A stretch of 37,734 nucleotides of DNA from Acidobacteriota bacterium (lineage in GTDB: Bacteria > Acidobacteriota > Terriglobia > Terriglobales > Acidobacteriaceae): assembly GCA_003225465.1 (NCBI GenBank), contig QIAH01000300.1, positions 1 through 37,734 on the forward strand. Direction: 5' to 3'. A model generated the notes under the pieces. The model was not told the origin of the DNA, searched no databases, and saw nothing but the letters and a program-made list of their open reading frames with translations. The stretch's first letter is position 1. Each line of letters starts with the position of its first letter. Below, in pieces: positions 164-23,447 of this stretch. The position numbers and the translations under genes are program-made.

Positions 164-274
164 GTGGAGGCGACCTGCGGCGCAAAACGCGCGCGGGGCA
201 TGCCTTTTCGCATTGCAATGAGTTCGTCATTTCCGACCCTGAGTGGCGATGAGAGATGGGTAGTGGAGAGTGGA

Positions 275-1551: not shown

Positions 1552-1563
1552 AAAGGGCCGAGG

Positions 1564-2673: not shown

Positions 2674-2687
2674 GTACTGAGTACTGA
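2671..2687 (+). repeat. Heptamer tandem repeat across the pilW stop codon
   Basis: TGAGTAC occurs twice in tandem and is followed by a third TGA (TGAGTACTGAGTACTGA). The first TGA is the pilW stop. Because the period is seven, the three TGA triplets at 2671, 2678 and 2685 fall in all three reading frames. Confidence 0.8.
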
Positions 2688-2704
2688 AGGGCAGGGAAAT
2701 ATCT

Positions 2705-5408: not shown

Positions 5409-5491
5409 GTGGGCAGGAACGAAGTTGCAGGTAGAATGAGGACCTCGATTTCGATTGGTAAGCCTATTTCGCGAAGTAGTGGAGGAATGTT

Positions 5492-6127: not shown

Positions 6128-6130
6128 CAA
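6101..6130. repeat. Dispersed palindromic repeat, family A copy 1
   Basis: GCAGATTCCTCGCTGCGCTC followed by GGAATGACAA. The core ATTCC...GGAAT is an interrupted inverted repeat around CGCTGCGCTCG. It recurs at 6261-6290 and 23634-23665. This copy overlaps the 3' end of the HAD gene and supplies its TGA stop. Confidence 0.8.
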
Positions 6131-6155
6131 GCCTTACTTTTATAGCGAGTGTGTT

Positions 6156-6179
6156 GTCCCGGGAGTTTCTTGCCGGGAC
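6156..6179. terminator. Hairpin between convergent genes
   Basis: GTCCCGG (6156-6162) pairs with CCGGGAC (6173-6179) around a ten-base loop. There is no T-tract. It sits between the HAD gene and the convergent zinc-ribbon gene and could act as a bidirectional transcript end or be one more palindromic repeat. Confidence 0.4.
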
Positions 6180-6260
6180 CTGACGGCAGCAGCCCTTCAG
6201 AGGTGGTGCCGTTCGGGGTGGGACAGTTCGCAGCATCCCAATGACTCAGTTCCGCGCGCT

Positions 6261-6290
6261 GCGGATTCCTCGCTGTGCTCGGAATGACAA
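6261..6290. repeat. Dispersed palindromic repeat, family A copy 2
   Basis: GCGGATTCCTCGCTGTGCTC followed by GGAATGACAA, 28 of 30 positions identical to the copy at 6101. It lies in the convergent intergenic region just before the 3' end of the minus-strand zinc-ribbon gene. Confidence 0.8.
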
Positions 6291-6325
6291 AATTCAAAAC
6301 TACAGGCTTCGATATCGGGGCACCA

Positions 6326-7345
6326 CTAGAGAGGTTTGCGGGGAGGAGCAGGTTTTTGAACCGGACCGGGTGTTGATGCGGGCTTGGGATGCTCGAGATC
6401 CGGAGTTGCTGACAAGCTAAGGTCACTCGACCAGCAATCGCTGACAATTCTCCATTCGCCGTTGGGCTGTCTCGCCAGGACAATGAGATATTTGCCGCGT
6501 TCCTCCCGGCGTTTGCCGACTACATAGGGAACGAGCATTTTGCAGCGGCCCGCTTCGTAAGCAACGTCGCCGACGATGTCCACACGAAGCGGATCGAGTT
6601 CCACCTCTCCAAAACCTGCATCGAGTGCGGCGAAGAAAAATTCGCGAATCGCGGCCGTTCCGCGGACGGGCGGGTGGTTGGGACGAAGGACGATTGCATC
6701 AGGAGCGTAGGTGCTGACGAGGTCGTCCAAGTGGCGGCTATTGCAGGCAAGAGCCCAGTCGAGTGTCACTTGGCGGACGGCTGTCTCAACACGGCTCATG
6801 AGGGCACCGCCGCCCGGAGTGCGCAGCTTGGCGGTGGTGGGATCGTTTGCGATCGCGCGAGGAACGGACGCGGCTCCTACGTCGTGGCCCGGCGCGAAAT
6901 AATGATGGTGATAGTGGTGGTGATAGTGATGCTCGCCGGGTGGCAACGCGGTTTGCTGGGAAGTGTTGTCGGATGCTGACGGCGGAGGCTCGGGGAGATG
7001 GGGCTGAGTGCCAGGAGGAACCGGCACTCCGCACATTTCGCAGAACTGACTGGCCGAGCGATTCCGATGGCCGCAAGCCTCGCAGGTGATCTGGAGCGAG
7101 CGAGCAACGCCAGGTTTGCCCGAGTCGGCGACCGCGGCGGATTCAGCGGCAAGGCGCTGCATGGTTTGCAGCGCTTCCGAGATAGCCTCCTGGCTGGGAT
7201 GCGGCCGGCGCATATCGGATTGCAGGCGATTAAAGAATTCATCGACGTGTGGATTTTGGCCGAGCTCGTCCCCAGAACCAGCGTTGGGCAAGGGTGCGGG
7301 TGGCCGGGGAGTTGGTTTCTTGGGATCCACGATAGAGTCCCTCAT
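6326..7345 (-). CDS. Zinc-ribbon protein with His-rich linker and NTF2/SnoaL-like domain
   Basis: 339-residue soluble protein of unknown role. It begins with a Pro-rich segment and a helical stretch (about 31-75), then a four-cysteine zinc ribbon (C88-x2-C91 and C102-x2-C105, ITCEACGH ... FCEMCGVP). A His/Tyr-rich linker follows (EHHYHHHYHHHYF, 138-150). The C-terminal half (about 185-307) reads as an NTF2/SnoaL or DUF4440-like domain (DDLVSTYAPDAIVLRPNHPP ... GEWRIVSDCWSS). A Pro-rich tail ends the protein. I use ATG 7345, which leaves 19 bases after the preceding TonB-type gene; a longer frame reaches 7531 but would overlap that gene. No enzyme active site is evident. The His linker suggests metal binding, which is an inference. 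Confidence 0.7.
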   Translation of the reverse strand: MRDSIVDPKKPTPRPPAPLPNAGSGDELGQNPHVDEFFNRLQSDMRRPHPSQEAISEALQTMQRLAAESAAVADSGKPGVARSLQITCEACGHRNRSASQFCEMCGVPVPPGTQPHLPEPPPSASDNTSQQTALPPGEHHYHHHYHHHYFAPGHDVGAASVPRAIANDPTTAKLRTPGGGALMSRVETAVRQVTLDWALACNSRHLDDLVSTYAPDAIVLRPNHPPVRGTAAIREFFFAALDAGFGEVELDPLRVDIVGDVAYEAGRCKMLVPYVVGKRREERGKYLIVLARQPNGEWRIVSDCWSSDLSLSATPDLEHPKPASTPGPVQKPAPPRKPL

Positions 7346-7364
7346 TCTAGACCAAAGGCGCGAA

Positions 7365-7814
7365 CTAGCGACTTGAAAACTCGATTTTCGCCTCGGTTTC
7401 GGTAGGAACTCCGTTGCACATCGCAGGACGATAGCGCCAGCTGCGAACGGTTTCGAGGATGGTGTGATCCTCGATGCTGCCGGCACTCTCAAGGATGAGC
7501 GGGCTGTGTACGCGTCCGTCCGCACCGACAATAAAGCTCACTCGAACTTTTACGCTGGGATCGCTGGGTCCCAGAATCGGATTTGGAGTGGTCAGAGCTT
7601 CGGGAGGATGGGTGCGTTCGCACCTGGAACGTGCGCTGGTGTGCGGCACATCGGCGAATTCGGAGACATGAACGGGAACTCGCCAAAGCTGCTGTTCGCG
7701 TGCGACAAGGTGCTCGGTGCTGGAAACGCGCAGGCTCGGCCAGAGGCTGGAAGCCATCGAGGTAGTCGCGAGGATGAGGGTCAAGCAAAGTGGCCGCAGT
7801 TTGCGCGGAAACAT
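7365..7814 (-). CDS. TonB C-terminal-domain protein, secreted
   Basis: 149-residue protein with an N-terminal hydrophobic segment (LRPLCLTLILATTSMASSLW) that reads as a signal peptide or anchor. The C-terminal 75 residues match a TonB_C-type domain: VSFIVGADGRVHSPLILESA, then the helix ending in ETVRSWRYRPA and the final strand TEAKIEFSS. It lacks the long Pro-rich periplasm-spanning region of true TonB, so it is more likely a stand-alone periplasmic partner than the main energy transducer. The start is uncertain: ATG 7814 has GGTGAG upstream, and a GTG three codons earlier (7823) is possible. The zinc-ribbon gene follows after 19 bases, suggesting co-transcription. Confidence 0.65.
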   Translation of the reverse strand: MFPRKLRPLCLTLILATTSMASSLWPSLRVSSTEHLVAREQQLWRVPVHVSEFADVPHTSARSRCERTHPPEALTTPNPILGPSDPSVKVRVSFIVGADGRVHSPLILESAGSIEDHTILETVRSWRYRPAMCNGVPTETEAKIEFSSR

Positions 7815-8105
7815 GTATCTCACCCAACAGAGTGCTCAAACTCGGCGAACAGTCTACGCCGATCAGCGAACTAACGGCAATGCGAATGCCCGAATGCCAG
7901 GCTGAATCCATGTAGGTGATGGATTTTCAGAGACATACAGTGGGCAAGAGGGGAACCGGCAAAATTCCAAGGAAAAGTGTTGCAGTTCCTAACGGGTTTA
8001 CAGGGCCCGTGGTCCCAAATCGGCACGGGTGTGTCGATTGTGAAGCGCCTGTCCTTGCGAAGGCAGCGAGTAAGAACGAATACTAGCGATAAGGGAGCAA
8101 AGGCG
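7815..8105. other. Divergent intergenic region
   Basis: This 290-base stretch lies between the TonB-type gene (-) and the Rrf2 gene (+) and should carry both promoters. Apart from AAGGGAG shortly before the Rrf2 ATG, I see no clear operator or -35/-10 pair in it. Confidence 0.4.
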
Positions 8106-8561
8106 ATGTTTGCACGGTCGTCGGGGTATGCGGTCAAGGCACTGACGCATTTGGCGGGTCAACCCTCGGGCAAACTGGTGGGCGCGCGCGAGATGGCGAC
8201 AACACTGCAGATTCCGATGCCATTCCTGTGGAAGATCCTGCGCAAACTGGGGAAAAAGAAGCTGGTTCGGTCGTTCAAGGGAGTGCGCGGAGGTTATCAA
8301 CTAGCGCGGCCTGCCGAAACGATTTACATCAGCGAGATTCTGACCGCCAGCCAGGATAATCATGTGGGCCGGTGTATTTTGGGGTTGGCACAATGCGACG
8401 ATCAGGATCCTTGCCCATTGCATTCCCACTGGAAGAGCCTGCGAGTGCAGATCGAGGAAACGCTGGAAAGCACAACTCTCGCGGATCTGGCGGGCATTGC
8501 CAAGCGGTCCCGGCGCAGGCGTAGCCGTCGCGTCCTGGCGAAAGCTTCCGCGGCCTGCTGA
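8106..8561 (+). CDS. Rrf2-family transcriptional regulator, probable Fe-S sensor
   Basis: 151-residue DNA-binding protein. An N-terminal winged helix (YAVKALTHLA ... IPMPFLWKILRKL) leads to the family-typical wing FKGVRGGYQLARP (57-69). Three cysteines, C90-x6-C97-x5-C103 (GRCILGLAQC, DPCPLH), sit where IscR and NsrR bind an Fe-S cluster; IscR spacing is x5 and x5, so this is a one-residue variant. A basic tail (SRRRRSRR) is unusual and could strengthen DNA contact. ATG 8106 is chosen because the family begins directly with the winged helix and AAGGGAG precedes it. Sensing of Fe-S status, nitric oxide or redox is inferred from the family; targets are unknown. Confidence 0.85.
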   Translation: MFARSSGYAVKALTHLAGQPSGKLVGAREMATTLQIPMPFLWKILRKLGKKKLVRSFKGVRGGYQLARPAETIYISEILTASQDNHVGRCILGLAQCDDQDPCPLHSHWKSLRVQIEETLESTTLADLAGIAKRSRRRRSRRVLAKASAAC

Positions 8562-11422: not shown

Positions 11423-11713
11423 CTACCAATCCGTGCCGTGGCGGTCCTGGGCGGGCGCTTCGTTGCGGCTGAACTGATTTCGCTTGCGATAGGCGAGTAC
11501 GGTGATTCCGACCGACATGAACATAGGGGGGATGATGAGCACGAGGATTCCACTGCGCAGACCCTGAATCACGCGGGATCCCGCCGCGGCAGCCTGGGTG
11601 TAGCAAAGCGCGCAGTTTTGGGCGTAAGAGACCGAACTGAGCGCGAGCACCGCGAGAGTCGAAAGAAGCGATTTCACGATGCGCATCCTGGAATGAAATA
11701 GCGAGACTGGCAC
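11423..11713 (-). CDS. Small exported CxxC membrane protein at the end of the oxidase operon
   Basis: 96-residue protein: a signal or anchor segment (about 13-31, VKSLLSTLAVLALSSVSYAQ), then NCALCYTQAAAAGSR with a CxxC pair (C33, C36), then a transmembrane segment (about 52-75, GILVLIIPPMFMSVGITVLA) and a basic/acidic cytoplasmic tail. The GTG start at 11713 is favoured because AAGGAG lies seven bases upstream, directly after the coxD stop; the internal ATG at 11686 has no well-spaced site. The gap to coxD is 15 bases, so it is the last cistron of the oxidase operon. The CxxC on the outer face suggests copper or thiol chemistry in oxidase assembly, which is inference; no characterised family was recognised. 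Confidence 0.7.
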   Translation of the reverse strand: MPVSLFHSRMRIVKSLLSTLAVLALSSVSYAQNCALCYTQAAAAGSRVIQGLRSGILVLIIPPMFMSVGITVLAYRKRNQFSRNEAPAQDRHGTDW

Positions 11714-11728
11714 AATTCTACTCCTTCA

Positions 11729-12040
11729 TTATTTGGCGAACGGGCTCATGTGGAGAAGCCGAAAGCTATCGGACCAGATCATGTTCATCATGAGCACGAC
11801 GAAGATAGTGCCGGGAATGAGCGCAAGTTTCAGGTTGCGCTGCTCAGCGTGCAGGTGCATGAAGAACATGACGGCGAGGCCGGCCTGAATTAAGGCTACG
11901 GCCAGCATGCGCACGAGCAACTGCGCACCTTCAGCATGCTGATAGGCGAGCAGGACCTGCACGCCTGAAAGGGCGAGGATGCAGAGATATACGACGATGT
12001 CGGTTTTCAGGCTGTCGGCGGGTTGGGCGGGTGCGGTCAT
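11729..12040 (-). CDS. coxD: Cytochrome c oxidase subunit IV (prokaryotic COX4 family)
   Basis: 103-residue membrane protein with three predicted helices: IVVYLCILALSGVQVLLAYQ, LLVRMLAVALIQAGLAVMFF and LALIPGTIFVVLMMNMIWS. The MFFMHLHAEQRNLKLALIPG segment after helix 2 is typical of the prokaryotic COX4/CtaF family. It is a small accessory subunit in the inner membrane that is thought to stabilise the oxidase. ATG 12040 has GAGAGG seven bases upstream. The leader contains a purine-rich 16-base tandem repeat (described separately), leaving about 110 bases between coxC2 and this gene. Confidence 0.88.
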   Translation of the reverse strand: MTAPAQPADSLKTDIVVYLCILALSGVQVLLAYQHAEGAQLLVRMLAVALIQAGLAVMFFMHLHAEQRNLKLALIPGTIFVVLMMNMIWSDSFRLLHMSPFAK

Positions 12041-12050
12041 TTCGGCCTCT

Positions 12051-12098
12051 CTATTTTTTTGTCTTTCTATTTTTTCGTCTTTCTATTTTTCCACCTTT
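12051..12098 (-). repeat. Three 16-bp tandem units upstream of coxD
   Basis: On the plus strand the units are CTATTTTTTTGTCTTT (12051), CTATTTTTTCGTCTTT (12067) and CTATTTTTCCACCTTT (12083), each exactly 16 bases. On the coding (minus) strand they form an A/G-rich leader ending about 11 bases before the coxD ATG. Confidence 0.8.
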
Positions 12099-12101
12099 TT
12101 T

Positions 12102-12144
12102 GCGAGGGCGAGGACGCCCTCGCGACAGCCGGCAAGATGCCGGC
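12102..12144. repeat. Double-hairpin intergenic repeat between coxC2 and coxD
   Basis: GCGAGGGCG (12102-12110) and CGCCCTCGC (12115-12123) form a 9-bp stem with an AGGA loop. A second hairpin follows: GCCGGC (12128-12133), AAGAT loop, GCCGGC (12139-12144). The end of the element lies seven bases from the coxC2 stop. It looks like a member of a dispersed palindromic family, and no T-tract follows on the transcribed strand. Confidence 0.65.
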
Positions 12145-12151
12145 GCTACAT

Positions 12152-12802
12152 TCAGCGTGCAACGTTGAGCAGGTAGACCATGGGGACAACGAACATCCAG
12201 ACCAGGTCGACGAAATGCCAGTACAGGGACCAGATTTCGATGTCGTCGGCCTTGTAACGGCCGCGTTTGTAGCCGAAAGCCACGACCGTTAGGGCGATCA
12301 CGCCGCCGATCACGTGAGTCAGGTGCAGGCCGGTAATCGCGAAGAAGGTCGCGCCAAACAAGGGCGACCCCCAGGGGTTCTGAAAGAGTCGGACGCCTTC
12401 GCCAATGAGTGCGAACCATTCGCGAATGTGGAGCAGGGCAAAGAGGATGCCGCCGGCGACGGTGATGAATGTCCAGCGGAGCGCGCCGGCCTTGTCAGCA
12501 GCTTTGGCCGCACGGGTGGCGATCAACATGGTGAGACTGCTGCTCACCAGGATGAAAGTCATCAACATGACGTTCAGGATGCTGGGCGAGAATTTGAACG
12601 GCTCAGGCCAGTTCGGGCTCGCATTCTTGATGTAGCCGTAGGCGAAAAGGATAGCGGCGAAGGTAACCGCGTCGGAGATGATGAAAAGCCACATCACCAG
12701 CTTTTTGGAAGGAATGGCGAACGGGGATGCTTCGAGGATTCCCGGCGCGTGTGCTCCCAACGGCAAATTTGCTTCGCTCACAGTGCCTCCGGCAGGGTTC
12801 AT
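12152..12802 (-). CDS. coxC2: Cytochrome c oxidase subunit III, second copy
   Basis: 216-residue, five-helix subunit III of the haem-copper oxidase family. Diagnostic segments are KKLVMWLFIISDAVTFAAIL in helix 1, TGLHLTHVIGGVIAL in the fourth helix and YWHFVDLVWMFVVPMVYLL at the C-terminus. It keeps the HFVDxVW signature, while the neighbouring paralogue has HFMGVLW, so the two copies are not redundant duplicates. The start is uncertain: ATG 12802 lacks a ribosome site, while GTG 12781 is preceded by GGAGG four bases away and would remove seven residues. It is separated from coxC1 by 300 bases filled with hairpin repeats but remains in the same orientation. Confidence 0.9.
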   Translation of the reverse strand: MNPAGGTVSEANLPLGAHAPGILEASPFAIPSKKLVMWLFIISDAVTFAAILFAYGYIKNASPNWPEPFKFSPSILNVMLMTFILVSSSLTMLIATRAAKAADKAGALRWTFITVAGGILFALLHIREWFALIGEGVRLFQNPWGSPLFGATFFAITGLHLTHVIGGVIALTVVAFGYKRGRYKADDIEIWSLYWHFVDLVWMFVVPMVYLLNVAR

Positions 12803-12848
12803 TAACAGGCTGCTGAAAAAATCTTTTCGCGGTCTACAATGTCCCTCA

Positions 12849-12901
12849 GCGGCTAAAGCCGCGTGAATTTGTTGCTCTTACGGCTGGGCTGAAGCCCAGC
12901 C
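12849..12901. repeat. Palindromic repeat pair in the coxC1-coxC2 gap
   Basis: First palindrome: GCGGCT (12849-12854), AA, AGCCGC (12857-12862). Second: GGCTGGGCT (12882-12890), GA, AGCCCAGCC (12893-12901). The two are 20 bases apart. Pairs of this type look like acidobacterial intergenic repeat elements. No gene is seen in the 300 bases between coxC2 and coxC1; a 69-codon frame there is read through these repeats and is not credible. Confidence 0.7.
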
Positions 12902-13008
12902 CTTTCAAAGCGCAGCTATCGCGGGCGTTTTCAGCAAACTGTGAAGCCGAGTCCTTTCCAAGCGACAGGTCTTTCGTGTTGTTGTCGAGCATCGGTCTTT
13001 GGGAAAAT

Positions 13009-13047
13009 CCCACCCTAACCTCGCAAAGAACGCGAGGTGAGGGTGGG
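13009..13047. repeat. Long hairpin in the coxC1-coxC2 gap
   Basis: CCCACCCTAACCTCGC (13009-13024) pairs with GCGAGGTGAGGGTGGG (13032-13047) with one mismatch in 16, around a seven-base AAAGAAC loop. In the transcript this would be a very stable structure 56 bases after the coxC1 stop. It is not followed by a T-tract on the minus strand, so it may protect or process mRNA instead of ending it. Confidence 0.7.
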
Positions 13048-13102
13048 GCACCCACGGCAGCTTTTCAAAACGCGATTGAAATCCGAGTTTTTTCACAATT
13101 CA

Positions 13103-13786
13103 CTAAAGCTTGATCCAAATCACCAGCAACACATATATCCAAAGGACTCCCATGAAGTGCCAATAGTAGGAGGTGGCATCCATGGTGCTGCGCCGCAGTG
13201 AAAGCACAGGACGGCGCAGTATGTAAATCACGCGCATGAGCCCCGCCAATCCCCCGAGGACGTGAAGAACGTGGATCGCAGTCAAGACATAGAAAAAAGA
13301 ACTGTTCGGATTGGACGCGAGATAGAGTCCTTCGGCCCGCAGTTGCTGCCAGGCAATGTATTGGCCGGTCACGAAGACGAACCCCAGCAACAAGGTCGCA
13401 GAGAGCCACGCGAGCGGCGTACTGCGATTCGCTGTCCTGCCGCGGGCAAATTCGGCTACGCGACGGCGTGCGATCTCCAAGGTGATGCTGCTGGCGAGAA
13501 GAACGACGGTGTTGAAGAAGACGATGGAGGGAATCGTCAGATGATGCCAGTCGTTGGCGGTCGATTGCCGGACGATGAGCGCGCTGGTAAACGCGGCAAA
13601 CGACATCGTGATGGCTGCGAGGCCAACCCAGACTCCGGTTCGCGACGGCTCGGGAGAAAAGTCTTCGAGGAGTTTGAGACTGCCGTTGGTCGGACCGAGG
13701 TTGCGCAAACCACCACCTCCGGAGTTCCCGTTATCCAGACGCGGTTTTTTTGATTCAGTTTCAGGCGACTGGATGGTTGTTGCCAT
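13103..13786 (-). CDS. coxC: Cytochrome c oxidase subunit III, first copy
   Basis: 227-residue membrane protein with an Asn/Gly-rich cytoplasmic N-terminus (about 1-45) and five helices: GVWVGLAAITMSFAAFTSAL, the VFFNTVVLLASSITLEIARR region, WLSATLLLGFVFVTGQYIAW, AIHVLHVLGGLAGLMRVIYI and YYWHFMGVLWIYVLLVIWIK. The HVLHVLGG and YYWHFMGVLW segments place it in the subunit III superfamily. It follows coxA after 38 bases in the operon. The N-terminal extension and the loss of the Asp in the HFVD-type motif separate it from the second copy. Confidence 0.9.
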   Translation of the reverse strand: MATTIQSPETESKKPRLDNGNSGGGGLRNLGPTNGSLKLLEDFSPEPSRTGVWVGLAAITMSFAAFTSALIVRQSTANDWHHLTIPSIVFFNTVVLLASSITLEIARRRVAEFARGRTANRSTPLAWLSATLLLGFVFVTGQYIAWQQLRAEGLYLASNPNSSFFYVLTAIHVLHVLGGLAGLMRVIYILRRPVLSLRRSTMDATSYYWHFMGVLWIYVLLVIWIKL

Positions 13787-13824
13787 GGCCCTTCACACCC
13801 CTTCCCTTCTGTTGCTGAGTAAAA

Positions 13825-15621
13825 CTATGTTCTCACTTCCACTTGTTCGGGCGAGTTCTGCATGAGGTAGTCGCCGGTAGAACTCTTCACGCCGTACTGG
13901 TAGGGATCGTGATAGACGACTACATGCTTGCCGCCGAAGTTATCGAACGGCGGCGGCGATGGCATGATCCACTCCAGCGAGGTGCATTCCCAGGGATTGT
14001 CGGGAGCGGGAGCGCCTCGGAAACGGCTGTGGATCAGGTTGTATAAGAAGATCAATTGTGCGGCTCCGGTACACAGCGCGGCAATGGTGATGAAGCGGTG
14101 CACCGGGATGAGCGGTACCAGGAAGTCGTCGACGAAGGCCGAATAGCGTCGGACATTGCCAGCAAGTCCGAGATAATGGAAAGGCATGAAGATGCAGTAG
14201 GTCCCGATGAAGGTCAGCCAGAAATGCAGTTTGCCGAGGGACTCGTTCATCATGTGGCCGGTCATCTTCGGGAACCAGAAGTAGGTGCCGGCGAAGACGC
14301 CGAAAATGGCGGCCACACCCATCACCATGTGGAAGTGTCCGACGACGAAGTAGGTGGCATGGAGATAGATGTCGATCGATGGCTGCGCGAGGAAGAAGCC
14401 GCTGACGCCGCCGCTGACGAACATCGAAATGAAGCCGAGCGCGAACAGCGATGCCGCGGTGATGCGCAGGCGAGAACCGTACAGACTGCCGAGCCAGATC
14501 AGCGTCATGATGGTGGCCGGGATGGTGATGACCAGGGTCGGGAAAGAGAACATCAGGGAGGAGAACGGATTCATTCCGCTGACGAACATGTGGTGTCCCC
14601 AGACCATGTAGCTGAGGAATCCGATTCCCATCATGCAATAGATGACGACCTTGTGGCTGAGCAGAGGACGGCGCATGCTGTTGATCAGAATGTGGGACAC
14701 GATGCCGATTGCAGGCAAGATCGCGATGTAGACCTCGGGATGACCGAAGAACCAGAACAGATGCTGCCACAGAAGCGGCGATCCGCCGGAATGCGGCTGC
14801 AGACGATCGCTGATGACGAGTCCGGCAGGGATGAAGAAACTGGTGCCGGCGACGCGATCGAGGATGAGAAGCAGACATGCAGGCAGCAGGACGGCGAAGG
14901 CCAGGAGGGCGATGCAGGATGTGATGAACCAAGCCCAGGTGCAGATGGGCATGCGCGAGAGCGTCATGCCCCTGGTTCGGAGGTCGAGTGTGGTGGCGAT
15001 GAAATTCAGCGCCCCTAGCAGCGAGGCGATGCAGAAAACGAAAATTGAAAGTCCCCAGAGAGTCTGACCGAAACCCTGGCCGGGACCGGCATCTGCTCCG
15101 ACAGCGCTAAGTGGAGCATAGGAAGTCCAGCCAGCGATCGGCGGGCCATCGCCCACGAAGAAGGCCGCGATCAGGATGCAGAAGGCCAGGAAGGTGGTCC
15201 AGAACGACATCATGTTGAAACGTGGGAACGCCATATCTTCCGCGCCGATCTGGATGGGGAGGAAATAGTTTCCGAAGGCTGCAAAGGGCGCATTGGTGAG
15301 CACGAAGAACACCATCAACGTGCCGTGCATGGTGAGCAGGGAGAGGTAATACTCAGGCGTCATGACGCCACCGGGGGCGCCGACCTTGGAGAGCAATCCG
15401 AGGCCCGGGATAGGCCAATTCGGCCAGACCAGGTGAATGCGCATCAGCCAGGAGAGGACCATGCCGATGAACACAGCGACGAGGGCAAGCGCGTAGTACT
15501 GCTTTCCGATCATTTTGTGGTCGAGACTGAAGACGTATTTGCGGATGAAGCCTTGTGGCGGCTGATGGTGGTGGACTACGTCGGCTGTTGTTGGGACTGC
15601 CTGAACTACACGGTCTGACAT
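13825..15621 (-). CDS. coxA: Cytochrome c oxidase subunit I (haem-copper, A-type)
   Basis: 598-residue catalytic subunit that reduces O2 and pumps protons in the inner membrane. Visible ligands: low-spin haem His H99 (LLTMHGTLMVFF), CuB His H294 in FFGHPEVYIA with E296 and the cross-linking Y298, CuB pair H343/H344 (WGHHMF), and H429/H431 (VGHFHM) for the high-spin haem and low-spin haem. The D-channel entrance is kept (GAEDMAFPRFN, D129 and N136). At the K-channel, where IPTGIK or IPSAVK is usual, the sequence reads TIPATIMTLIW, so the lysine position is M372 (codon at 14506-14508). ATG 15621 is chosen from the family N-terminus and AAGGGTG upstream; a longer frame to 15786 overlaps coxB and is rejected. 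It lies 56 bases after coxB. Confidence 0.93.
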   Translation of the reverse strand: MSDRVVQAVPTTADVVHHHQPPQGFIRKYVFSLDHKMIGKQYYALALVAVFIGMVLSWLMRIHLVWPNWPIPGLGLLSKVGAPGGVMTPEYYLSLLTMHGTLMVFFVLTNAPFAAFGNYFLPIQIGAEDMAFPRFNMMSFWTTFLAFCILIAAFFVGDGPPIAGWTSYAPLSAVGADAGPGQGFGQTLWGLSIFVFCIASLLGALNFIATTLDLRTRGMTLSRMPICTWAWFITSCIALLAFAVLLPACLLLILDRVAGTSFFIPAGLVISDRLQPHSGGSPLLWQHLFWFFGHPEVYIAILPAIGIVSHILINSMRRPLLSHKVVIYCMMGIGFLSYMVWGHHMFVSGMNPFSSLMFSFPTLVITIPATIMTLIWLGSLYGSRLRITAASLFALGFISMFVSGGVSGFFLAQPSIDIYLHATYFVVGHFHMVMGVAAIFGVFAGTYFWFPKMTGHMMNESLGKLHFWLTFIGTYCIFMPFHYLGLAGNVRRYSAFVDDFLVPLIPVHRFITIAALCTGAAQLIFLYNLIHSRFRGAPAPDNPWECTSLEWIMPSPPPFDNFGGKHVVVYHDPYQYGVKSSTGDYLMQNSPEQVEVRT

Positions 15622-15677
15622 GTGTTCACCCTTTGTAACAAACCGCCCAAACATAGCGCGAGCGGGTTGAACGGGAT

Positions 15678-16502
15678 CTATTGTTCCGAAGCCTTCTGCT
15701 TCATCCAGGCGTCGAAATCTTCCTGCGACAACACGTTCAGATACGCCTTCATGTTGTAGTGACCGAGACCACACAGCTGCGTACACACGATTTCGTACTT
15801 GCCGACCTTGGTGGCAGTGAAATGGACGGAGAGGTCGAGGCCGGGAACGAAATCCTGCTGGATGCGCAATTCCCGGACATAAAACGAGTGGCCAACATCT
15901 TTGGCGTGCATCATGAGGTGCACTTCGCGATTGATGGGAATGGCGAGTTCGCCGGTAACGATGTCATCTCGGGAATCGACGTCGTTGGCCGGATCGAGTC
16001 CAAAGAAGTTCGAATTGCCTTCATCGATCTTGTCGGGATGGAGGGCGCCGAATTTTCCGTCGGCGCCGGGATAACGGAAATAGAAGGCGAACTGTCCGGC
16101 TTGGGCCTGAACTTGGATGGCGTCGGGCTTGGCAGGTGTGAAGTAGACGGCTGCCCAGGCTTTCTGACCGAGGATGCCGAGCGCCAACATTTCGGTCCCG
16201 ACCAGCACCAGGGCGGCGATCACGAGGCCCTTTGCGCCTCCGGGGAAGGTTTTGATTTCGGCATTGGCCTGGCGATTGGAAAACTTCCAGACGAAAAACG
16301 CGAGCACGAACTGAGCGGCCAGGAAGGAGAGGCCGGCTTCGACCATGGTGTCGGAGAGTTGGTCGTCGATGGCATGGCCGTGAGTGGAGATGTCCTCCGG
16401 CAGCGCGAACGAGATGCCGGAGCCGAACCAGCTATGGGTGATGATGGGAATCGCCGATAACAGCGCAATCACGAAAACGATCACTGCGAATAGCTTGCCC
16501 AT
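15678..16502 (-). CDS. coxB: Cytochrome c oxidase subunit II with CuA site
   Basis: 274-residue subunit II that accepts electrons from cytochrome c or a cupredoxin at the periplasmic CuA centre. It has an N-terminal hydrophobic segment (4-22) and two further helices (about 56-73 and 92-113), then a cupredoxin domain. CuA ligands are H205 (DVGHSFYV), C240, C244, H248 and M251 in CTQLCGLGHYNM. The residue between the cysteines that is commonly Glu (CxExC, also a Mg ligand) is Gln, Q242. A long acidic insertion (about 146-180, PGADGKFG ... DPANDVDSRDD) precedes the His ligand. No fused cytochrome c domain is present. ATG 16502 is preceded by GAGG at suitable spacing. Confidence 0.92.
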   Translation of the reverse strand: MGKLFAVIVFVIALLSAIPIITHSWFGSGISFALPEDISTHGHAIDDQLSDTMVEAGLSFLAAQFVLAFFVWKFSNRQANAEIKTFPGGAKGLVIAALVLVGTEMLALGILGQKAWAAVYFTPAKPDAIQVQAQAGQFAFYFRYPGADGKFGALHPDKIDEGNSNFFGLDPANDVDSRDDIVTGELAIPINREVHLMMHAKDVGHSFYVRELRIQQDFVPGLDLSVHFTATKVGKYEIVCTQLCGLGHYNMKAYLNVLSQEDFDAWMKQKASEQ

Positions 16503-16591
16503 TCCGCCTCGCAATCGTCCGGGCCAGCACCCGGTTTTGTGCAGAGAGGAGGCCGGCGCGAAGCCGGACACTCCTCGAGCCTACGGCACGG

Positions 16592-17296
16592 CTAGTACGG
16601 CTTCGCCTTGAAGGTGAAGTCCACATTTTTGGTTTCGCTGCCGGAGATGGTCACGTCCTGCGTCTGAGTCCCGTAATCCTCCTGCCAGGCGGTGATGGTG
16701 TACTTGCCCGGAGGCAGCTTCGGCAACGAGAAAGTGCCATTGTCCGAGGAGATCGCATAGTGCGAAGTCTTCAGGACGGCGAAATAACCGTGCATCCAGG
16801 GATGGACATTGCATTTCACGGGAACGAATTCTTCCTTATCGAACTTTTCGGATAGAGGAGGAGTTCCCGGGGGCTGGGACTTATTCCATTCGCGATTGAC
16901 CTTGGCAAGCGGGTGAATGTTATGCGAGGTCTGATCGGCGTTGACGACCTTGAGTTCCTGGCCCGTGCGCATGGCAAGAACGTGCGGAATGTATTGGCAT
17001 CCCTTTTGAGTGAAGGTGACGGCTTGAGCAGGCGCGGAAGACTCGTCGGGAGCGCCGGCAGAGATGTAGACGACCACGTTCGCGAGAGTGTTGTTCGCAC
17101 CAGTGACGACGGTCTCAGTCGTGACGGGAGTCGTATGCTGCTTGGCGCAGCTCGGCTCCTTGGACATGTCGATGGGTTTCTGCTTGGCGGGCGTTCCTGT
17201 GTAAGTGATTTTTCCACTTACCGTGCCAGCACCAAACGAGAGTGCCGGGGAAACCATAAACGCAAGAAGAGCCACAAATACCAGCTTGGTACGCAT
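16592..17296 (-). CDS. Periplasmic cupredoxin-like protein with C-terminal carboxypeptidase-regulatory-like domain
   Basis: 234-residue exported protein: signal peptide about 1-23 (LVFVALLAFMVSPALSFGAG), then a cupredoxin-like domain and a C-terminal beta domain (about 180-232, NGTFSLPKLPPGKYTITAWQ) of carboxypeptidase-regulatory type. Candidate type I copper ligands are H125 or H128 (SHNIH), C162, H165 and M168 in VKCNVHPWMHGYF. Two more cysteines (C50, C100) may form a disulfide. Lying between the diheme cytochrome c and coxB genes, it is a good candidate for an electron carrier to CuA or a copper delivery protein; the sequence alone does not decide. The start is supported by GGAGGGAGAG upstream. 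Confidence 0.75.
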   Translation of the reverse strand: MRTKLVFVALLAFMVSPALSFGAGTVSGKITYTGTPAKQKPIDMSKEPSCAKQHTTPVTTETVVTGANNTLANVVVYISAGAPDESSAPAQAVTFTQKGCQYIPHVLAMRTGQELKVVNADQTSHNIHPLAKVNREWNKSQPPGTPPLSEKFDKEEFVPVKCNVHPWMHGYFAVLKTSHYAISSDNGTFSLPKLPPGKYTITAWQEDYGTQTQDVTISGSETKNVDFTFKAKPY

Positions 17297-17334: not shown

Positions 17335-18207
17335 CTAGTTACCGCTGCCCGAACCCTTGTTTTCCGGCTGGGCAGGCGGGTTGGCATCAGGCGCCTTGGT
17401 GGGAATTTTTCCCCCGGCCGCCTTCAACACTTCGTTTTCCCTGCTGTGGCGATTGGTCTGAAGTGTGCGCAAAAAGTGAACAAGATCCCAGGCGTCATTG
17501 GGCTGAATCACGTCGGCGAAGGAGGGCATCGGGGTTCCATCCAGGCCGGTCATGAAGATGCGATAGACGTCCTGGTTGGTGACTCCGCACTTGAAGCGCG
17601 AATCATCCCCGCCCGCGGCGAAGTTGTACGGGCGGATGGGATTGTCTTTGCTATCGGTAAGAGTAGCGGCGGAAGGACCGTCGCCTCTTCCCTGCTGGCC
17701 GTGACATTTCCAGCACTCCATCTTTTGGAAAAGTTCTGCGCCGTGCGTGATGCTCTCCATCGTCACCGGAGGCTCGGCAGGAACCTTGATGGGATCGCCG
17801 GCTTTTTCAGCCTGCCAGCGAGGCGAGAAGGTTTTGATAAAAGCCACCAAATCGATGCGGTTCTGATCGGTGAGCGCATCCCAATGGGGCATGTTCGAAT
17901 TGGTGAAGCCGCGGCCAACCGAGTTGTAGAGGTCCTGATCGGTGGGAAGAGTGCCGGTGGGGGTGGAGCGGCATTTGAAAGTGGCGGCGGTGAAGTCCCT
18001 TGGTTTGGGGTCAATCCATTGGGCATTTTCGCCATTGCCGTCGCCCAGAGGACCGTGGCAGCCGATGCAGTACCGGCGATAATGCTTTTTGCCTTCGGTG
18101 GCATGGCCAGTGAGGTTTCCCACATGCGCTTCCTGCGCGAGGCACGACACTGCCATGGCGAGCATCAGCGCACAATTCGCTGCTAACCGCTTCGAGGCTG
18201 ATTTCAT
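17335..18207 (-). CDS. Diheme cytochrome c, periplasmic
   Basis: 290-residue exported protein with a signal peptide (CALMLAMAVSCLAQ, about 12-25) and two class I cytochrome c domains. Domain 1: CIGCH at 47-51, the typical PKPRDFT segment, and a likely Met ligand M106 (NSNMPHW). Domain 2: CWKCH at 165-169, with M227 (GTPMPSF) as the likely ligand. A Pro/Asn/Gly-rich tail follows. It is the first gene of the oxidase operon and probably delivers electrons to the cupredoxin or directly to CuA. No bc1 or alternative complex III gene is present in this window. The start ATG 18207 has only a weak GGGTGA upstream. Confidence 0.88.
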   Translation of the reverse strand: MKSASKRLAANCALMLAMAVSCLAQEAHVGNLTGHATEGKKHYRRYCIGCHGPLGDGNGENAQWIDPKPRDFTAATFKCRSTPTGTLPTDQDLYNSVGRGFTNSNMPHWDALTDQNRIDLVAFIKTFSPRWQAEKAGDPIKVPAEPPVTMESITHGAELFQKMECWKCHGQQGRGDGPSAATLTDSKDNPIRPYNFAAGGDDSRFKCGVTNQDVYRIFMTGLDGTPMPSFADVIQPNDAWDLVHFLRTLQTNRHSRENEVLKAAGGKIPTKAPDANPPAQPENKGSGSGN

Positions 18208-18475: not shown

Positions 18476-19750
18476 TTAGTTGAGACGCATGGCCCGGAAT
18501 TCGGTCGCCGGATCCAGGGAGCAACGGTTCACGAACGCCTCATCGGGCAAACCTCCCTCGACCCATTGGCGGATGTCGGAAAGGGTGGCGGCCGCGACAC
18601 CTCCCCGGGCACCGAGGAAGACGACGACAACTCCTTCCACTTCGGTCTGTGACTCTGAAACCGTGCGATAGCGACTTTGGAAGATACGCTTGGCATAACC
18701 CAGCTTGGCGTCTTGACTCGCCATGTCGGAGAGAAGGCCGCGGGGTTGGGCGTAGACGAACAGGACCTTCTTCCCTTTCAGACGAACCCAGTCGCCCGAG
18801 AAAACTGTGACGTCCTCGCGGCTCACCGAGAAGCCCAGATCGCGCTGGGCGCCGGTTGAGGCGGCTTGGGAACTGCCTGGAGAAGTATCGGGTGCTTTCG
18901 CGACGAGACCATCGGGAAGCGCCAATTCATCAGCCTGGATGTATGCGGTGGTGTCCGGTGCGAGGCGGACCTGGGCCCAGCCCGATTGGAGATCGATGAC
19001 TTCAAATTCGTCTTCTGCCTGTGCGCGAAAGAGCACCGGACCGCCAAAGTTCTGTCGGGACATCACACCGACGCCGGAATGTTTTATGGAGGCCAGTCTG
19101 GAGGCGTTGGCAGGCTTGCGGTCAGAGGCTTTGAGTTGCTCGATCTGGGCCTGCAGCGTAGCCGTCTTCTCCCGCACTGCTTGCCTTTGAGTCAGAATTG
19201 CATCCAATTGCTCTTGTGAAGCTGGCGCGGGTTTGGAGGGTCTGTCTGGGAACTTGGCCGCCGTGGTTGGGCTTGCATGCGACGTTGGAGCTGAAGTGGC
19301 AACTGTGGACGTTGCAGTGGATCCTCCGAGCGCTCGCTGCAGGCGATCAAGCAAATCGGATTCGAGCCGACCATTCGAGGGAAGAGACCGGTACTCGGAG
19401 CGGGCAGGATTGGGGTCAGCATACCAGGCGCTGATCATCGCTTCGACGCTGATGGCAGTCGTGTTCGGGTCGACCGGCCGGAGGTGGACCCGATATTGAT
19501 AGTAGGGCCGCTCGAGGCGCTCGAGTTGGGTCGAGGTTGCGGTCACGAAGCCGTCCACGATGGGCAGCTTGCCGCCGCCGAAACCGCCGATTTGCTGGAG
19601 TGCTTTCTGCATAACGTCGACAGAACAGGAGAACGTGCGCTCTACTGCCGGACTGCTGTCGGCCTGCGCCCAAGCTTGACCGACCAGCAACAAGCTCACA
19701 AAGAACAAGGCAAAGGCGCGAGCCGAAATAGGAAGACACGATCGCGTCAT
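18476..19750 (-). CDS. Exported SH3-like-domain protein of unknown function
   Basis: 424-residue protein: signal peptide (ARAFALFFVSLLLVGQAWAQ, about 10-29), an N-terminal beta domain (about 35-130), a Ser/Thr/Pro/Ala-rich linker, a helical coiled segment (QEQLDAILTQRQAVREKTAT) and an SH3b-like domain around SRQNFGGPVLFRAQAEDEFE and LQSGWAQVRLAPDTTAYIQA. The C-terminal domain is not recognised. ATG 19750 overlaps the stop of the upstream gene by four bases (ATGA), so the two are coupled. Both proteins of the pair share the layout N-terminal domain - coiled segment - SH3-like domain and may act together in the periplasm, perhaps at peptidoglycan; this is inferred. Confidence 0.65.
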   Translation of the reverse strand: MTRSCLPISARAFALFFVSLLLVGQAWAQADSSPAVERTFSCSVDVMQKALQQIGGFGGGKLPIVDGFVTATSTQLERLERPYYQYRVHLRPVDPNTTAISVEAMISAWYADPNPARSEYRSLPSNGRLESDLLDRLQRALGGSTATSTVATSAPTSHASPTTAAKFPDRPSKPAPASQEQLDAILTQRQAVREKTATLQAQIEQLKASDRKPANASRLASIKHSGVGVMSRQNFGGPVLFRAQAEDEFEVIDLQSGWAQVRLAPDTTAYIQADELALPDGLVAKAPDTSPGSSQAASTGAQRDLGFSVSREDVTVFSGDWVRLKGKKVLFVYAQPRGLLSDMASQDAKLGYAKRIFQSRYRTVSESQTEVEGVVVVFLGARGGVAAATLSDIRQWVEGGLPDEAFVNRCSLDPATEFRAMRLN

Positions 19751-20748
19751 GGCTGGACCTCCAGAAACGCATGCGAGATCCATCCTTCTTTGCCGTCCTC
19801 GGAGCGCACCTGGTACCAGTAGGCGCTCTTGGCGAGGACCGTGACTTCCTGCCCCTTGGTCAAGGCCTCCACAACCCGGGCATGGGCGTACGGCAAATTC
19901 TTAAGTTCTGCGCGGTCGGCCTTAACCCGCACAAATTCTGAAGTGCGAAGCTGGCGTGCCCGCGCTTCCAACTGGTCGAGATTGGCGGACTCGGAAGCCA
20001 GCAGCGTTCTTTGTTCGCCAATGACACGCTGTAGATCAGCGAGCTTTGCAGAGTCGACCACCTCTACCGGTGCAGATCCGGAAGCTGGAGCCGGCTTGAC
20101 CGTGGGCGGCTCGTTCTCCGGCGGCGCTGCGTCGGATCGCGATGAACTCTCATGCCCAGGAGTGAATTGCTCTCCGGCGGCCAATTGCGTCTGGAGTTGG
20201 TCACGATCCTTCAGCCGCTTGCCAATTTCGCCAAACTCGCATGTCTCGACGTAGCCGTCAGAGGGATGTCCATGATGGCGCGCGTTTTCGATGAACACCG
20301 CGTCGATGAACAGGCGCGTGGAGTTCGGACTAAGCTCCTGCACCACGTACCTGACGGCAACGGTGCCGACGTCGTTGCTGTTCAGAAAATGCGAGGGCGA
20401 GAGCGTCTTGGCGCGGACCTTATAGAGGACCTTGCCAGGACCGGACCACGCCGGAAACAGCTGGGACTTTTCTTCGAATTGGGCGCCGTTGAGCTGCTCC
20501 TCGTCGCGATATTCGAATGTTCCCTTGATCGAGCCGCTGTGAGCCACATCGCTGACTGCGCTCAGGACTTCGGCGAATGGCTTATCCAGATCGATGGAAA
20601 AGCTGGCGCCGGCAGTATCACGAGACCGCGAGTAGCACAGATTGCATAGAAAGAGAATTGAGAGGCAGGCGGCACACGCAAGCCGGAATCCCGTGGCTTT
20701 TGAATTTCGAGCGCGTGCGAAGACCCGCTCTAAAACAGCTTCAGGCAT
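19747..20748 (-). CDS. Exported protein with C-terminal SH3-like domain
   Basis: About 333 residues: a hydrophobic N-terminal segment with cysteines (LACAACLSILFLCNLCYS, about 23-40), a beta-rich domain with a lipid- or START-like look (FSIDLDKPFAEVLSAVSDVA ... GTVAVRYVVQELSPNSTRLF), a Pro-rich linker, a coiled coil (about 235-270, LADLQRVIGEQRTLLASESA) and a C-terminal bacterial SH3 domain (ALTKGQEVTVLAKSAYWYQV, then GKEGWISHAFLEV). The start is uncertain: ATG 20748 is used, a TTG at 20772 would add eight residues, and neither has a good ribosome site. The upstream barrel-cytochrome gene ends 42 bases away, so the three genes may form one transcription unit. Confidence 0.65.
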   Translation of the reverse strand: MPEAVLERVFARARNSKATGFRLACAACLSILFLCNLCYSRSRDTAGASFSIDLDKPFAEVLSAVSDVAHSGSIKGTFEYRDEEQLNGAQFEEKSQLFPAWSGPGKVLYKVRAKTLSPSHFLNSNDVGTVAVRYVVQELSPNSTRLFIDAVFIENARHHGHPSDGYVETCEFGEIGKRLKDRDQLQTQLAAGEQFTPGHESSSRSDAAPPENEPPTVKPAPASGSAPVEVVDSAKLADLQRVIGEQRTLLASESANLDQLEARARQLRTSEFVRVKADRAELKNLPYAHARVVEALTKGQEVTVLAKSAYWYQVRSEDGKEGWISHAFLEVQP

Positions 20749-20790
20749 GCGAAATAGCTTAAACCCTAGCAAGCAAAATCAAAATCACCA

Positions 20791-22194
20791 TCAGTAATCA
20801 AAATCAAAACCGATCATGACACTGCGGACCGTCTGATCGCTGCTTGTCAGGATAGAGGTGTTACCGGTCTTGGCCTGCGCGTACTCATTATGGAAGGCCA
20901 GGCCGGCGCGGCTGAACATAATGGGATACCAGCGGTAGCCGATGGTGAAGGAATCGACGTTGCCAAGGTTGGGCGTCGCGGCGAGGGCTGGGTTGGCCTG
21001 ACGCGACATGTGCACGAGTTCGTATCGGCCCGTGAAAATAAACTGCGGGTTGACCGTGTAGTGCGCCTCGACAAATCCGCCATTCCAACTCGGGCCGGCG
21101 GCGCCCGGGGGCAAGGAGCCAGGATCGTTCGCGGCTACGCCATTGCCTAGAAACACGTTGTCCTGACCGTGCATGTAGAGAGTTTCGATATCGAGCTGTT
21201 TCAGGAACCACCAGCCGTACGCACCGACGCGCGAGAAGCTTCGGTTTCCTTTGGCCTGGACGGGCACGCCCTGGCTGGTCAGGAAGAAGGTTGGGGACAT
21301 TCCGAAATACCCGAAAACGCCTACCCGCTGCACGCCGAGACTACCCGCCTGGAATCCCTCGTTGAGGTTGATGAAGGTGTCATAGGTTCGGGCGGTACCG
21401 CCTTGACCGCCGCTGGTAAAGCCAGGGTTGCCGTCCACACTGCTGAGCAGGGCGATCGAGTAGCGCGCGTAACTGTTTTTGGAGTGGCCCGACACTTCGA
21501 GGCCGAGTTGGTTGTCTCCAATGCCGCCAAAACCATTGATATCCCCGGCGGGCAGGAAATGATAGTTGTACCAGGATCCGCCTACGTTGGAGAGGGTCAG
21601 AAAGCGCTTCTCCGAAAGCAGTGTATCGAGTTCGAATTTCCCCAGCTTGACGTTCAGCCAGGGGGAATTGAGCAGGTTATCGAAACGTACCCAGGCGTTC
21701 TCGAAGTGGAAAGTATCGCCCTCGCCCATGGAAGGCAGCACGGAAAACGAGATGTTTTTGTAAAGAGTGCCGGCCGTCCAGATGTCCAGGCCCGAGAGAT
21801 CAAACCCGTGAGTAGTTACGGTTTCTTCAGTGGCGGGCGTGGTCATGCCGGGAGCGTCGATGCCGACCTTGGTCTGGCTCTCCAAGTGCCACTGAGGGGT
21901 CACGCGGAAGGTGATTGGCCAGTACGAGGGATTCTGATAAATGGGCGAGTCGCGTTCGTTGCCGAGCTGGTAGCCGTTATCGCGGAACTGCTGTCCGAAC
22001 ACGTTCAGGATGGGCCAGCCAATGTGGCAGGCGGAGCATGGCAGGCCGTATTTCCGGGCAAACGCGGGAATGGCATGTCCGGGCTGGCTGGCCATGATGA
22101 CAAATGACAAAAGGGGAAGGGCCACGGCCAAGAATGACCGGAGAAACGGAATGACGGAAGTTGATGGCCTGCATTTCACATCAGGGACTTGCAT
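20791..22194 (-). CDS. Outer-membrane beta-barrel with N-terminal monohaem cytochrome c motif
   Basis: 467-residue exported protein. A signal peptide (SFLAVALPLLSFVIMASQPGH, ending about residue 41) is followed by FARKYGLPCSACHIGWPILN with one haem-c motif, C53-x2-C56-H57, and then VFGQQFRDNGYQ. The remaining 390 residues show alternating hydrophobic/polar beta strands and aromatic girdles and end in the C-terminal aromatic signal IGFDFDY of outer-membrane barrels. This layout, and the 'FAR..G..C..CH...P.L..FG..F...GY' pattern, recall the Cyc2 iron-oxidase type of fused cytochrome-porin, but a broader uncharacterised family also has it. ATG 22194 is chosen because CAGGAG lies five bases upstream; the longer frame to 22257 lacks such a site. 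It is divergent from ctaB. Confidence 0.75.
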   Translation of the reverse strand: MQVPDVKCRPSTSVIPFLRSFLAVALPLLSFVIMASQPGHAIPAFARKYGLPCSACHIGWPILNVFGQQFRDNGYQLGNERDSPIYQNPSYWPITFRVTPQWHLESQTKVGIDAPGMTTPATEETVTTHGFDLSGLDIWTAGTLYKNISFSVLPSMGEGDTFHFENAWVRFDNLLNSPWLNVKLGKFELDTLLSEKRFLTLSNVGGSWYNYHFLPAGDINGFGGIGDNQLGLEVSGHSKNSYARYSIALLSSVDGNPGFTSGGQGGTARTYDTFINLNEGFQAGSLGVQRVGVFGYFGMSPTFFLTSQGVPVQAKGNRSFSRVGAYGWWFLKQLDIETLYMHGQDNVFLGNGVAANDPGSLPPGAAGPSWNGGFVEAHYTVNPQFIFTGRYELVHMSRQANPALAATPNLGNVDSFTIGYRWYPIMFSRAGLAFHNEYAQAKTGNTSILTSSDQTVRSVMIGFDFDY

Positions 22195-22562: not shown

Positions 22563-23447
22563 ATGAGCACAGCGTCACAACTGCCAACGATTCACCGTAG
22601 CCGAATGACTTCCCTGCTGCTCGACTATGCCGAACTCATCAAGCTGCGGGTGACCACGCTCATCGTGATGACCGCCTGGTGCGGATATTTTTTTGCGTCA
22701 CGGAAGGTCCAGCTCGTCTCGAGCGGCACGGCTGCACTCAACGAAGTGATGGAGCGGGATGTCGACGCACGCATGAGACGAACCGCTTCGCGACCCCTGC
22801 CGACGGGCCGAATGAGCTTGCTGCACGCCGCCTTCGCCGGAGTGTTGCTGACGGTGGGCGGTTCGTTGTACCTCGGGGCCTTCGCAAATCCACTGACTGG
22901 CTGGCTTACGTTTTTGACATCGGTGGTATATCTCGGCGCATATACGCCTCTGAAACGGTTTTCGTCAGTTTGTACCTTCGTCGGGGCATTTCCCGGCGCA
23001 ATGCCAGGGGTTCTGGGATGGACTGCGGCGCGGGGCCGACTCGAGTGGGGAACTCTGATTTTGTTCGGGATTTTGTTCCTCTGGCAGTTTCCGCATTTCT
23101 TTTCGATTGCATGGCTGTACCGGGAAGATTACGCACAGGGTGGGGTTCGGATGCTGCCGGTGGTCGAACCACAGGGGAGATCAACGGCGGTACGGATCGT
23201 TCTGTATTCGACTCTCCTTTTGCCTGTGAGTCTGCTGCCGAGTTTTAGCGGGATGTCGGGAAGAGCATATCTTGCGGGCGCACTGATGCTTGGTTTCGGA
23301 TTGCTCTGGATGGGAGCACGGCTGGCAATGCTGCGAATGCCTCTGACGAGTGCGGTTTCCAAGTTACGGGCAAGGCAACTGCTTCAGGCAACAATTGTGT
23401 ATCTGCCGGTATTGTTCTTGTTGATGATGACCGATTGCCGGCTATAG
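22563..23447 (+). CDS. ctaB: Protohaem IX farnesyltransferase (haem O synthase)
   Basis: 294-residue polytopic UbiA-family prenyltransferase that converts haem B to haem O for the haem-copper oxidase. First Asp-rich motif: NEVMERDVDARMRRTASRPL (about 61-80). Other family segments are YLGAYTPLKR, the GAFPGAMPGVLGW loop, LWQFPHFFSIAWLYREDY and GVRMLPVV. Compared with the usual layout, the stretch between the end of helix 1 (MTAWCGYFFASRK) and the Asp-rich motif is short: only about 13 residues, where I expect about 30, so part of helix 2 seems to be missing. No ctaA is present in the window. ATG 22563 has only a distant GGGGAG upstream; ATG 22605 is an alternative. Confidence 0.87.
   Translation: MSTASQLPTIHRSRMTSLLLDYAELIKLRVTTLIVMTAWCGYFFASRKVQLVSSGTAALNEVMERDVDARMRRTASRPLPTGRMSLLHAAFAGVLLTVGGSLYLGAFANPLTGWLTFLTSVVYLGAYTPLKRFSSVCTFVGAFPGAMPGVLGWTAARGRLEWGTLILFGILFLWQFPHFFSIAWLYREDYAQGGVRMLPVVEPQGRSTAVRIVLYSTLLLPVSLLPSFSGMSGRAYLAGALMLGFGLLWMGARLAMLRMPLTSAVSKLRARQLLQATIVYLPVLFLLMMTDCRL

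Follow-up and report, generated by a model that had tools for sequence, protein, structure and literature searches.

A Cyc2-like cytochrome-porin encoded beside a dihaem cytochrome c, a cupredoxin and an aa3-type oxidase in a member of the Acidobacteriota

The stretch of DNA analysed here, a window of 37,734 nucleotides from a member of the Acidobacteriaceae, encodes on its minus strand, at positions 20791-22194, a protein that is a Cyc2 homologue by published sequence criteria. The best overall explanation of this gene and its neighbours, and one that we hold to be probable, is a cytochrome-porin served by a soluble extracellular donor (most likely Fe(II)) and working with a dihaem cytochrome c, a cupredoxin and a linked oxidase. 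In the proposed path, a small soluble extracellular donor would enter a 16-strand-type outer-membrane barrel and reduce the one c-type haem placed at its periplasmic mouth; the electron would then pass to the dihaem cytochrome c, the cupredoxin encoded nearby serving as a second carrier, and from these carriers to the CuA site of the linked aa3-type oxidase, by which O2 would be reduced. The analysis establishes the features of the sequence, a gene order kept among relatives, the co-occurrence of the parts and, with moderate confidence, a porin model; we infer the membrane location, the haem loading, the direction of the electrons, the order of the carriers and the donor of this Cyc2-like system.

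Results and Discussion

Membership of the Cyc2 family was judged by the criteria of Keffer et al. (2021), i.e., the sequence motif, a single CXXCH with PXL, a length of at least 365 residues with a signal peptide, and a C-terminal porin barrel. The published signature, AXPXFAR[Q/K][T/Y] with CXXCH and PXL (PMC8406198), is matched exactly: AIPAFARKY is followed by three residues (GLP), CSACH, three further residues (IGW) and PIL, placing the motif directly upstream of the only CXXCH and the PXL directly downstream of it. The open reading frame runs from an ATG at 22194 down to 20791, an upstream GTG start being also possible by the list of reading frames, and its 467 residues are predicted to form a leader (1-41), a monohaem domain (about 42-90) and a porin barrel (about 94-467). 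The leader, judged by eye, is hydrophobic and ends in GHA before IPAF, the CxxCH (C53-H57) stands directly after it, and the protein closes with IGFDFDY, its last residue being aromatic. The C-terminal outer-membrane porin barrel is given by an AlphaFold2 model, the alignment behind which was made of Cyc2 proteins. An earlier note, made from the sequence alone, had read a Cyc2-type architecture in this protein (a signal peptide, a CxxCH right after it and a barrel with an aromatic end) and had named the haem-flanking residues FAR..G..C..CH, P.L..FG and GY; the architecture was confirmed and all the residues are present, the haem being surrounded by FARKYGLPCSACH, P-x-L (PIL), FG and GY.

Clear orthologues were found in 16 of 61 genomes (60 relatives and the window's own), 14 other genomes carrying full-length or nearly full-length copies with pairwise identities of 50-87%, and the invariant columns of the family alignment are concentrated in the haem domain. 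The window's own genome holds a second full-length copy, 80% identical, on another contig (C132), as well as two more distant haem-barrel genes elsewhere. A chance reading frame was ruled out by this second copy together with the orthologues in the 14 other genomes, and a chance CxxCH within a porin by the conservation of the family. Of 297 genomes sampled from the phylum, only 11 gave a match at E 1e-20 or better, and seven of these 11 are distant forms outside the family; a scan of viral contigs for additional orthologues returned none. The only Pfam match is a sub-threshold, C-terminal porin match (BBP2), and the Cyc2 proteins tested likewise match no Pfam family; membership of BBP2, which appears in three of 16 members, was dropped.

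Distant homologues also occur in other surroundings. One, about 36% identical (L170, 9005-11354), adjoins a di-haem cytochrome of the MauG/peroxidase type instead of a dihaem cytochrome c and an oxidase. In the window's own genome, contig C425 (L045, 117-4000) holds a distant haem-barrel paralogue with the motifs FSRQYG and CSTCH; genes for a plastocyanin-like cupredoxin and a GltD-like oxidoreductase come after it, and together they may form a further electron-transfer set.

The barrel announced in the earlier note was recovered as a predicted porin of about 16-17 strand elements in an AlphaFold2 model (pLDDT 66, pTM 0.67) built on an alignment of Cyc2 proteins about 15-21% identical to the query, towards which the barrel may be drawn. 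The top Foldseek match of the model is OprO (E 5e-11) and VIA-align gave Z values of about 21 to PorB, OprP and OprO, the latter two being the porins matched to Cyc2 in the literature. The porin fold is supported with moderate confidence, yet not independently of Cyc2 proteins, because the alignment consisted of them. The model obtained from the single sequence was useless (pLDDT 33), and a count of amphipathic strands was given no weight as evidence for a barrel, 17 strands being counted against 16.8 in shuffled columns. In the Protein Data Bank no sequence relative was found of this group, nor of a Mariprofundus Cyc2.

For placement in a tree, 80 named Cyc2 loci (Gallionella, Sideroxydans, Mariprofundus and others) were retrieved together with plasmid-borne FARQTG homologues. 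The cluster 1 search was seeded with a 42-residue consensus, justified by its matches, which include Gallionella, Sideroxydans and Mariprofundus; cluster 2 was represented by FARQTG sequences from plasmids, metagenomes and acidobacteria, with the chromosomal Cyc2 of Acidithiobacillus left out, and cluster 3 by the second copies of Mariprofundaceae (as inferred from PMC7029218), with Leptospirillum Cyt572 left out. Cluster 1, to which the tested iron oxidases of neutrophiles belong, forms its own clade (SH-aLRT 98), as do the proteobacterial and bacteroidotal FARQTG sequences taken as cluster 2 (SH-aLRT 100), and the Cyc2-like protein lies outside both. A further split (SH-aLRT 98) parts clusters 1 and 2 from the Cyc2-like protein, the distant acidobacterial forms and the Mariprofundaceae second copies (L133, L135), which have the FARKY signature in common with it. 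The tree that the earlier note had proposed as a check sets the protein on the FARKY side, outside clusters 1 and 2, within a group of its own made up mainly of acidobacterial sequences. Since Cyc2 of cluster 1 and of cluster 3 have both been reported from Zetaproteobacteria (PMC7029218), the Mariprofundaceae second copies are presumed to be cluster 3, and by sequence the acidobacterial protein probably belongs to this poorly tested cluster too. Acidobacterial homologues of Cyt572 have been reported (PMC10654088). FARQTG-type Cyc2 is also found in relatives (L021, L023, L025-L028) that belong to another family of the same order, and the three of these sequences included in the tree (L021, L025 and L028) fall in cluster 2.

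The two halves of the protein behave differently in profile-profile comparison. The haem domain matches clusters 1 and 2 and the Mariprofundaceae second copies, each with more than 99% probability, whereas the barrel matches only another acidobacterial haem-barrel group (98%) and stays below 4% against cluster 1, cluster 2 and the Mariprofundaceae copies alike; the barrels of clusters 1 and 2 match one another (97%). As the barrel, unlike the haem domain, matches none of these three Cyc2 groups, the barrels have either diverged past detection or joined the haem module separately. The protein is like those of cluster 1 (e.g., Mariprofundus Cyc2-PV1) and cluster 2 (Acidithiobacillus) in its leader, its single-haem motif, a C-terminal barrel of similar predicted fold and size, and a role likewise proposed as outer-membrane electron entry; it differs in having FARKY instead of FARQT, in an overall identity of about 13-21% to the cluster 1 and 2 sequences retrieved, in a barrel lacking profile homology to theirs and in its separate clade. 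With the presumed cluster 3 copies it has FARKY and the side of the tree in common, but here too the barrel has no profile match. The resemblance to Cyc2 described in the earlier note therefore holds for the haem signature and the predicted porin barrel, and is to be restricted insofar as the protein stands outside clusters 1 and 2 and has a barrel with no detectable homology to theirs.

This contrast between the halves bears on the donor. Fe(II) is oxidised by each of the three Cyc2 proteins so far characterised biochemically (PMC8406198) and is therefore the leading candidate; by analogy it may be the physiological donor here, a claim on which we come down just on the side of doubt. An inward path left unchanged but fed by something other than iron, be it Mn(II) in some form, reduced humics or a different small reducing agent, is rather unlikely in our judgement. 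It would agree with a barrel that, at the very place where the donor would bind, is not recognisably that of cluster 1 or 2, with the description of the function of cluster 3 as the most uncertain (PMC8406198) and with the role in Mn(II) lithotrophy that has been proposed for the Cyc2 of Ca. Manganitrophaceae (PMC9040806), and it has against it the common Fe(II) activity of the three characterised proteins. As for Mn(II) in particular, the potential of a cluster 1 Cyc2 was measured at 208 mV. The oxidation of Mn(II) calls for a potential above this value, which counts against Mn(II) as the donor.

The neighbouring genes supply the carriers that electron entry through the Cyc2-like protein would use. 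Downstream of it on the minus strand, and separating it from the dihaem cytochrome c gene, lie two genes that are conserved neighbours of the module: an SH3-domain protein (PF08239; 19747-20772), which begins 18 bp away, and an SH3-like protein with a sub-threshold SH3_3 match (18476-19783), which overlaps the former. Then follow, on the same strand, the dihaem cytochrome c (17335-18207), with two Met-Pro ligand candidates for its haems (M106 and M227) kept across 23 homologues, and the cupredoxin (16592-17296), whose His125, Cys162, His165 and Met168 are invariant across 22 homologues, which carries a CarboxypepD_reg-like C-terminal domain and of which a paralogue scores above the Pfam cut-off for copper proteins. 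The oxidase genes coxB-A-C-C-D span 11729-16571, also on the minus strand: coxB for subunit II (15678-16571), with a CuA motif (CTQLCGLGHYNM), coxA for the aa3-type subunit I (13825-15786 as listed, the true start being probably near 15624), two copies of coxC for subunit III (13103-13786 and 12152-12802) and coxD for subunit IV (11729-12040). A small conserved membrane protein without Pfam match (11423-11713, minus strand) ends the operon, and ctaB, encoding a haem O synthase of the UbiA family (22563-23447, plus strand), is divergent from the Cyc2-like gene. The divergent haem O synthase and the nearby oxidase operon with a cupredoxin were thus correctly recognised from the sequence by the earlier note, and its diheme cytochrome is indeed a two-haem protein, with the qualification that it is closer to PDB 6h5l chain B (E 2e-55 over 214 residues) than to a c4-type Cyc1. 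Similarity to c4 cytochromes is remote (hhalign 97%) and no Cyc1 structure was among the PDB matches. Chain B of 6h5l, which we take to be the dihaem cytochrome paired in Kuenenia with an HAO-like protein, is also a dihaem partner cytochrome, but from a different organism and presumably serving an octahaem enzyme, whereas here the protein co-occurs with a cytochrome-porin and an oxidase.

The rus operon of Acidithiobacillus ferrooxidans has the order cyc2-cyc1-cup-coxBACD-rus (PMC10654088; PMC2754497). The functional classes in the window follow the same order, and in both cases a haem O synthase gene is near. The window differs in that no rusticyanin gene was recognised among the genes inspected, in a dihaem cytochrome nearer 6h5l where the cyc1 product is of the c4 type, in the extra CarboxypepD_reg domain of cup, in the two inserted SH3 genes and in the presence of two coxC genes. 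An Rrf2-family regulator (7977-8561, plus strand) is encoded about 3 kb beyond the oxidase operon, and a regulator of this family (ctaR) is likewise known from the rus region; as a conserved partner it was dropped, being absent beside the module in relatives. Two other features of the window may be recorded. The ctaB product lacks 16 residues found in its relatives just after FFASRK, an in-frame deletion near the first membrane segments that is either real or an assembly error, and at 164-5347 (plus strand) there are four genes with N-termini like those of type IV pilins or minor pilins, the last above the cut-off for PilX_N and the first just below that for N_methyl.

The order Cyc2-like gene, dihaem cytochrome c, cupredoxin, coxB, coxA, coxC, coxC, coxD is kept in 13 relatives (L031-L043), one of which (L040) ends after coxB at the end of its contig. 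The SH3 pair (18476-20772 on the minus strand of the window) lies beside the module in these 13 relatives too, mostly divergent and upstream of it, and is codirectional with the Cyc2-like gene in the window and in its sister species (L030). Dihaem orthologues (E<1e-100) occur in 15 of the 16 genomes with a Cyc2-like orthologue and in none of the 45 without (Fisher 2e-13, not corrected for kinship), and the same 15 genomes hold a CoxA of at least 74% identity, all other CoxA matches in the 61 genomes being at or below 64%; the exception is a 69%-complete genome in which the Cyc2-like gene stands alone, with neither the dihaem orthologue nor the matching CoxA type. Eight of the 15, including the window's own (C176), have a further aa3 oxidase of the other type (at or below 64%). 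Because its CoxA type goes with the Cyc2-like gene where other types of aa3 oxidase exist, the oxidase looks, by sequence comparison, dedicated to the module. The connection with an oxidase chain, which the earlier note had drawn from one locus, gains in this way from an order kept in 13 loci and from a near-perfect co-occurrence.

Other arrangements show the haem-barrel gene in the company of the dihaem cytochrome. On contig C132 (L029) the triad cup-cyc2-dihaem has no oxidase within the stretch inspected; in a distant acidobacterium (L167) a distant homologue belongs to such a triad upstream of a cbb3 oxidase, and in L166 cyc2-dihaem and cup are present, with no oxidase in the stretch retrieved. 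As triads thus occur without an aa3 oxidase or with a cbb3 one, the haem-barrel appears tied to the dihaem cytochrome and not to any single oxidase. After the C132 triad come genes for an NtrC-type response regulator and a CHASE2 histidine kinase, which may be devoted to its regulation (L029, 12369-19472 for the whole set), and a second triad copy in another genome (L174, contig C219 of G010, 5487-7843) seems broken, with stop codons in the Cyc2-like gene and a split dihaem match.

A search of the window's genome found no match for RuBisCO and none for cytochrome c1, and the genome encodes several NrfD-type membrane proteins, as in alternative complex III. For these reasons the module is more likely to provide supplementary energy to a heterotroph than to sustain lithoautotrophy through the Calvin cycle. 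The lack of a cytochrome c1 match and the NrfD-type proteins also mean that quinol-fed cytochrome c pathways probably exist, and the oxidase, the dihaem cytochrome and the cupredoxin could then form an ordinary quinol-fed branch, the haem-barrel being merely co-regulated with it, e.g., for metal sensing or uptake. Cupredoxins of the cup family are indeed present in 47 of the 61 genomes, most of them without a Cyc2-like gene. However, an ordinary branch would leave unaccounted the near-perfect co-occurrence of the Cyc2-like protein, the dihaem cytochrome and the CoxA type, as well as the triads found without the aa3 oxidase (C132, L029) and with a cbb3 oxidase (L167), and we regard it as improbable.

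We consider it likely that the Cyc2-like protein feeds electrons inward, to the linked oxidase. The direction is not fixed by sequence, and other porin-cytochrome complexes with a part in iron cycling, such as MtrCAB, work outward, so that electrons might instead leave the cell for acceptors outside it, for instance Fe(III) or humics; with a terminal oxidase, itself an electron consumer, as the conserved partner, and with two His/Met-type c haems and a type 1 copper site suggestive of high potentials, outward flow is very improbable.

A broader reading takes the two halves of the protein and the gene cluster together. One haem module would have been fused to unrelated barrels more than once, and the Acidobacteriota would have a four-part module of their own leading from the outer membrane to oxygen (haem-barrel, dihaem cytochrome c, cupredoxin and dedicated oxidase), able to swap oxidases, not derived from rus and perhaps using another donor. 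Both parts holding jointly is a tentative idea and, on balance, a doubtful one.

Conclusions

Among the papers listed for Cyc2 together with Acidobacteria or Acidobacteriota, no title or abstract describes this cluster, and no paper was found that names both Koribacter and Cyc2. Abundant in soils, the Acidobacteriota are commonly taken to be heterotrophs. The co-occurring carriers and the module's own oxidase suggest an overlooked respiration on electrons from outside the cell, and the Cyc2-like set offers a concrete test set for cluster-3-like Cyc2. If the proposed path is true, part of the Acidobacteriota could live to some extent on the energy of Fe(II) or a different reductant outside the cell, which would bear on iron cycling in soils and on how far Cyc2 matches may be taken to mean iron oxidation.
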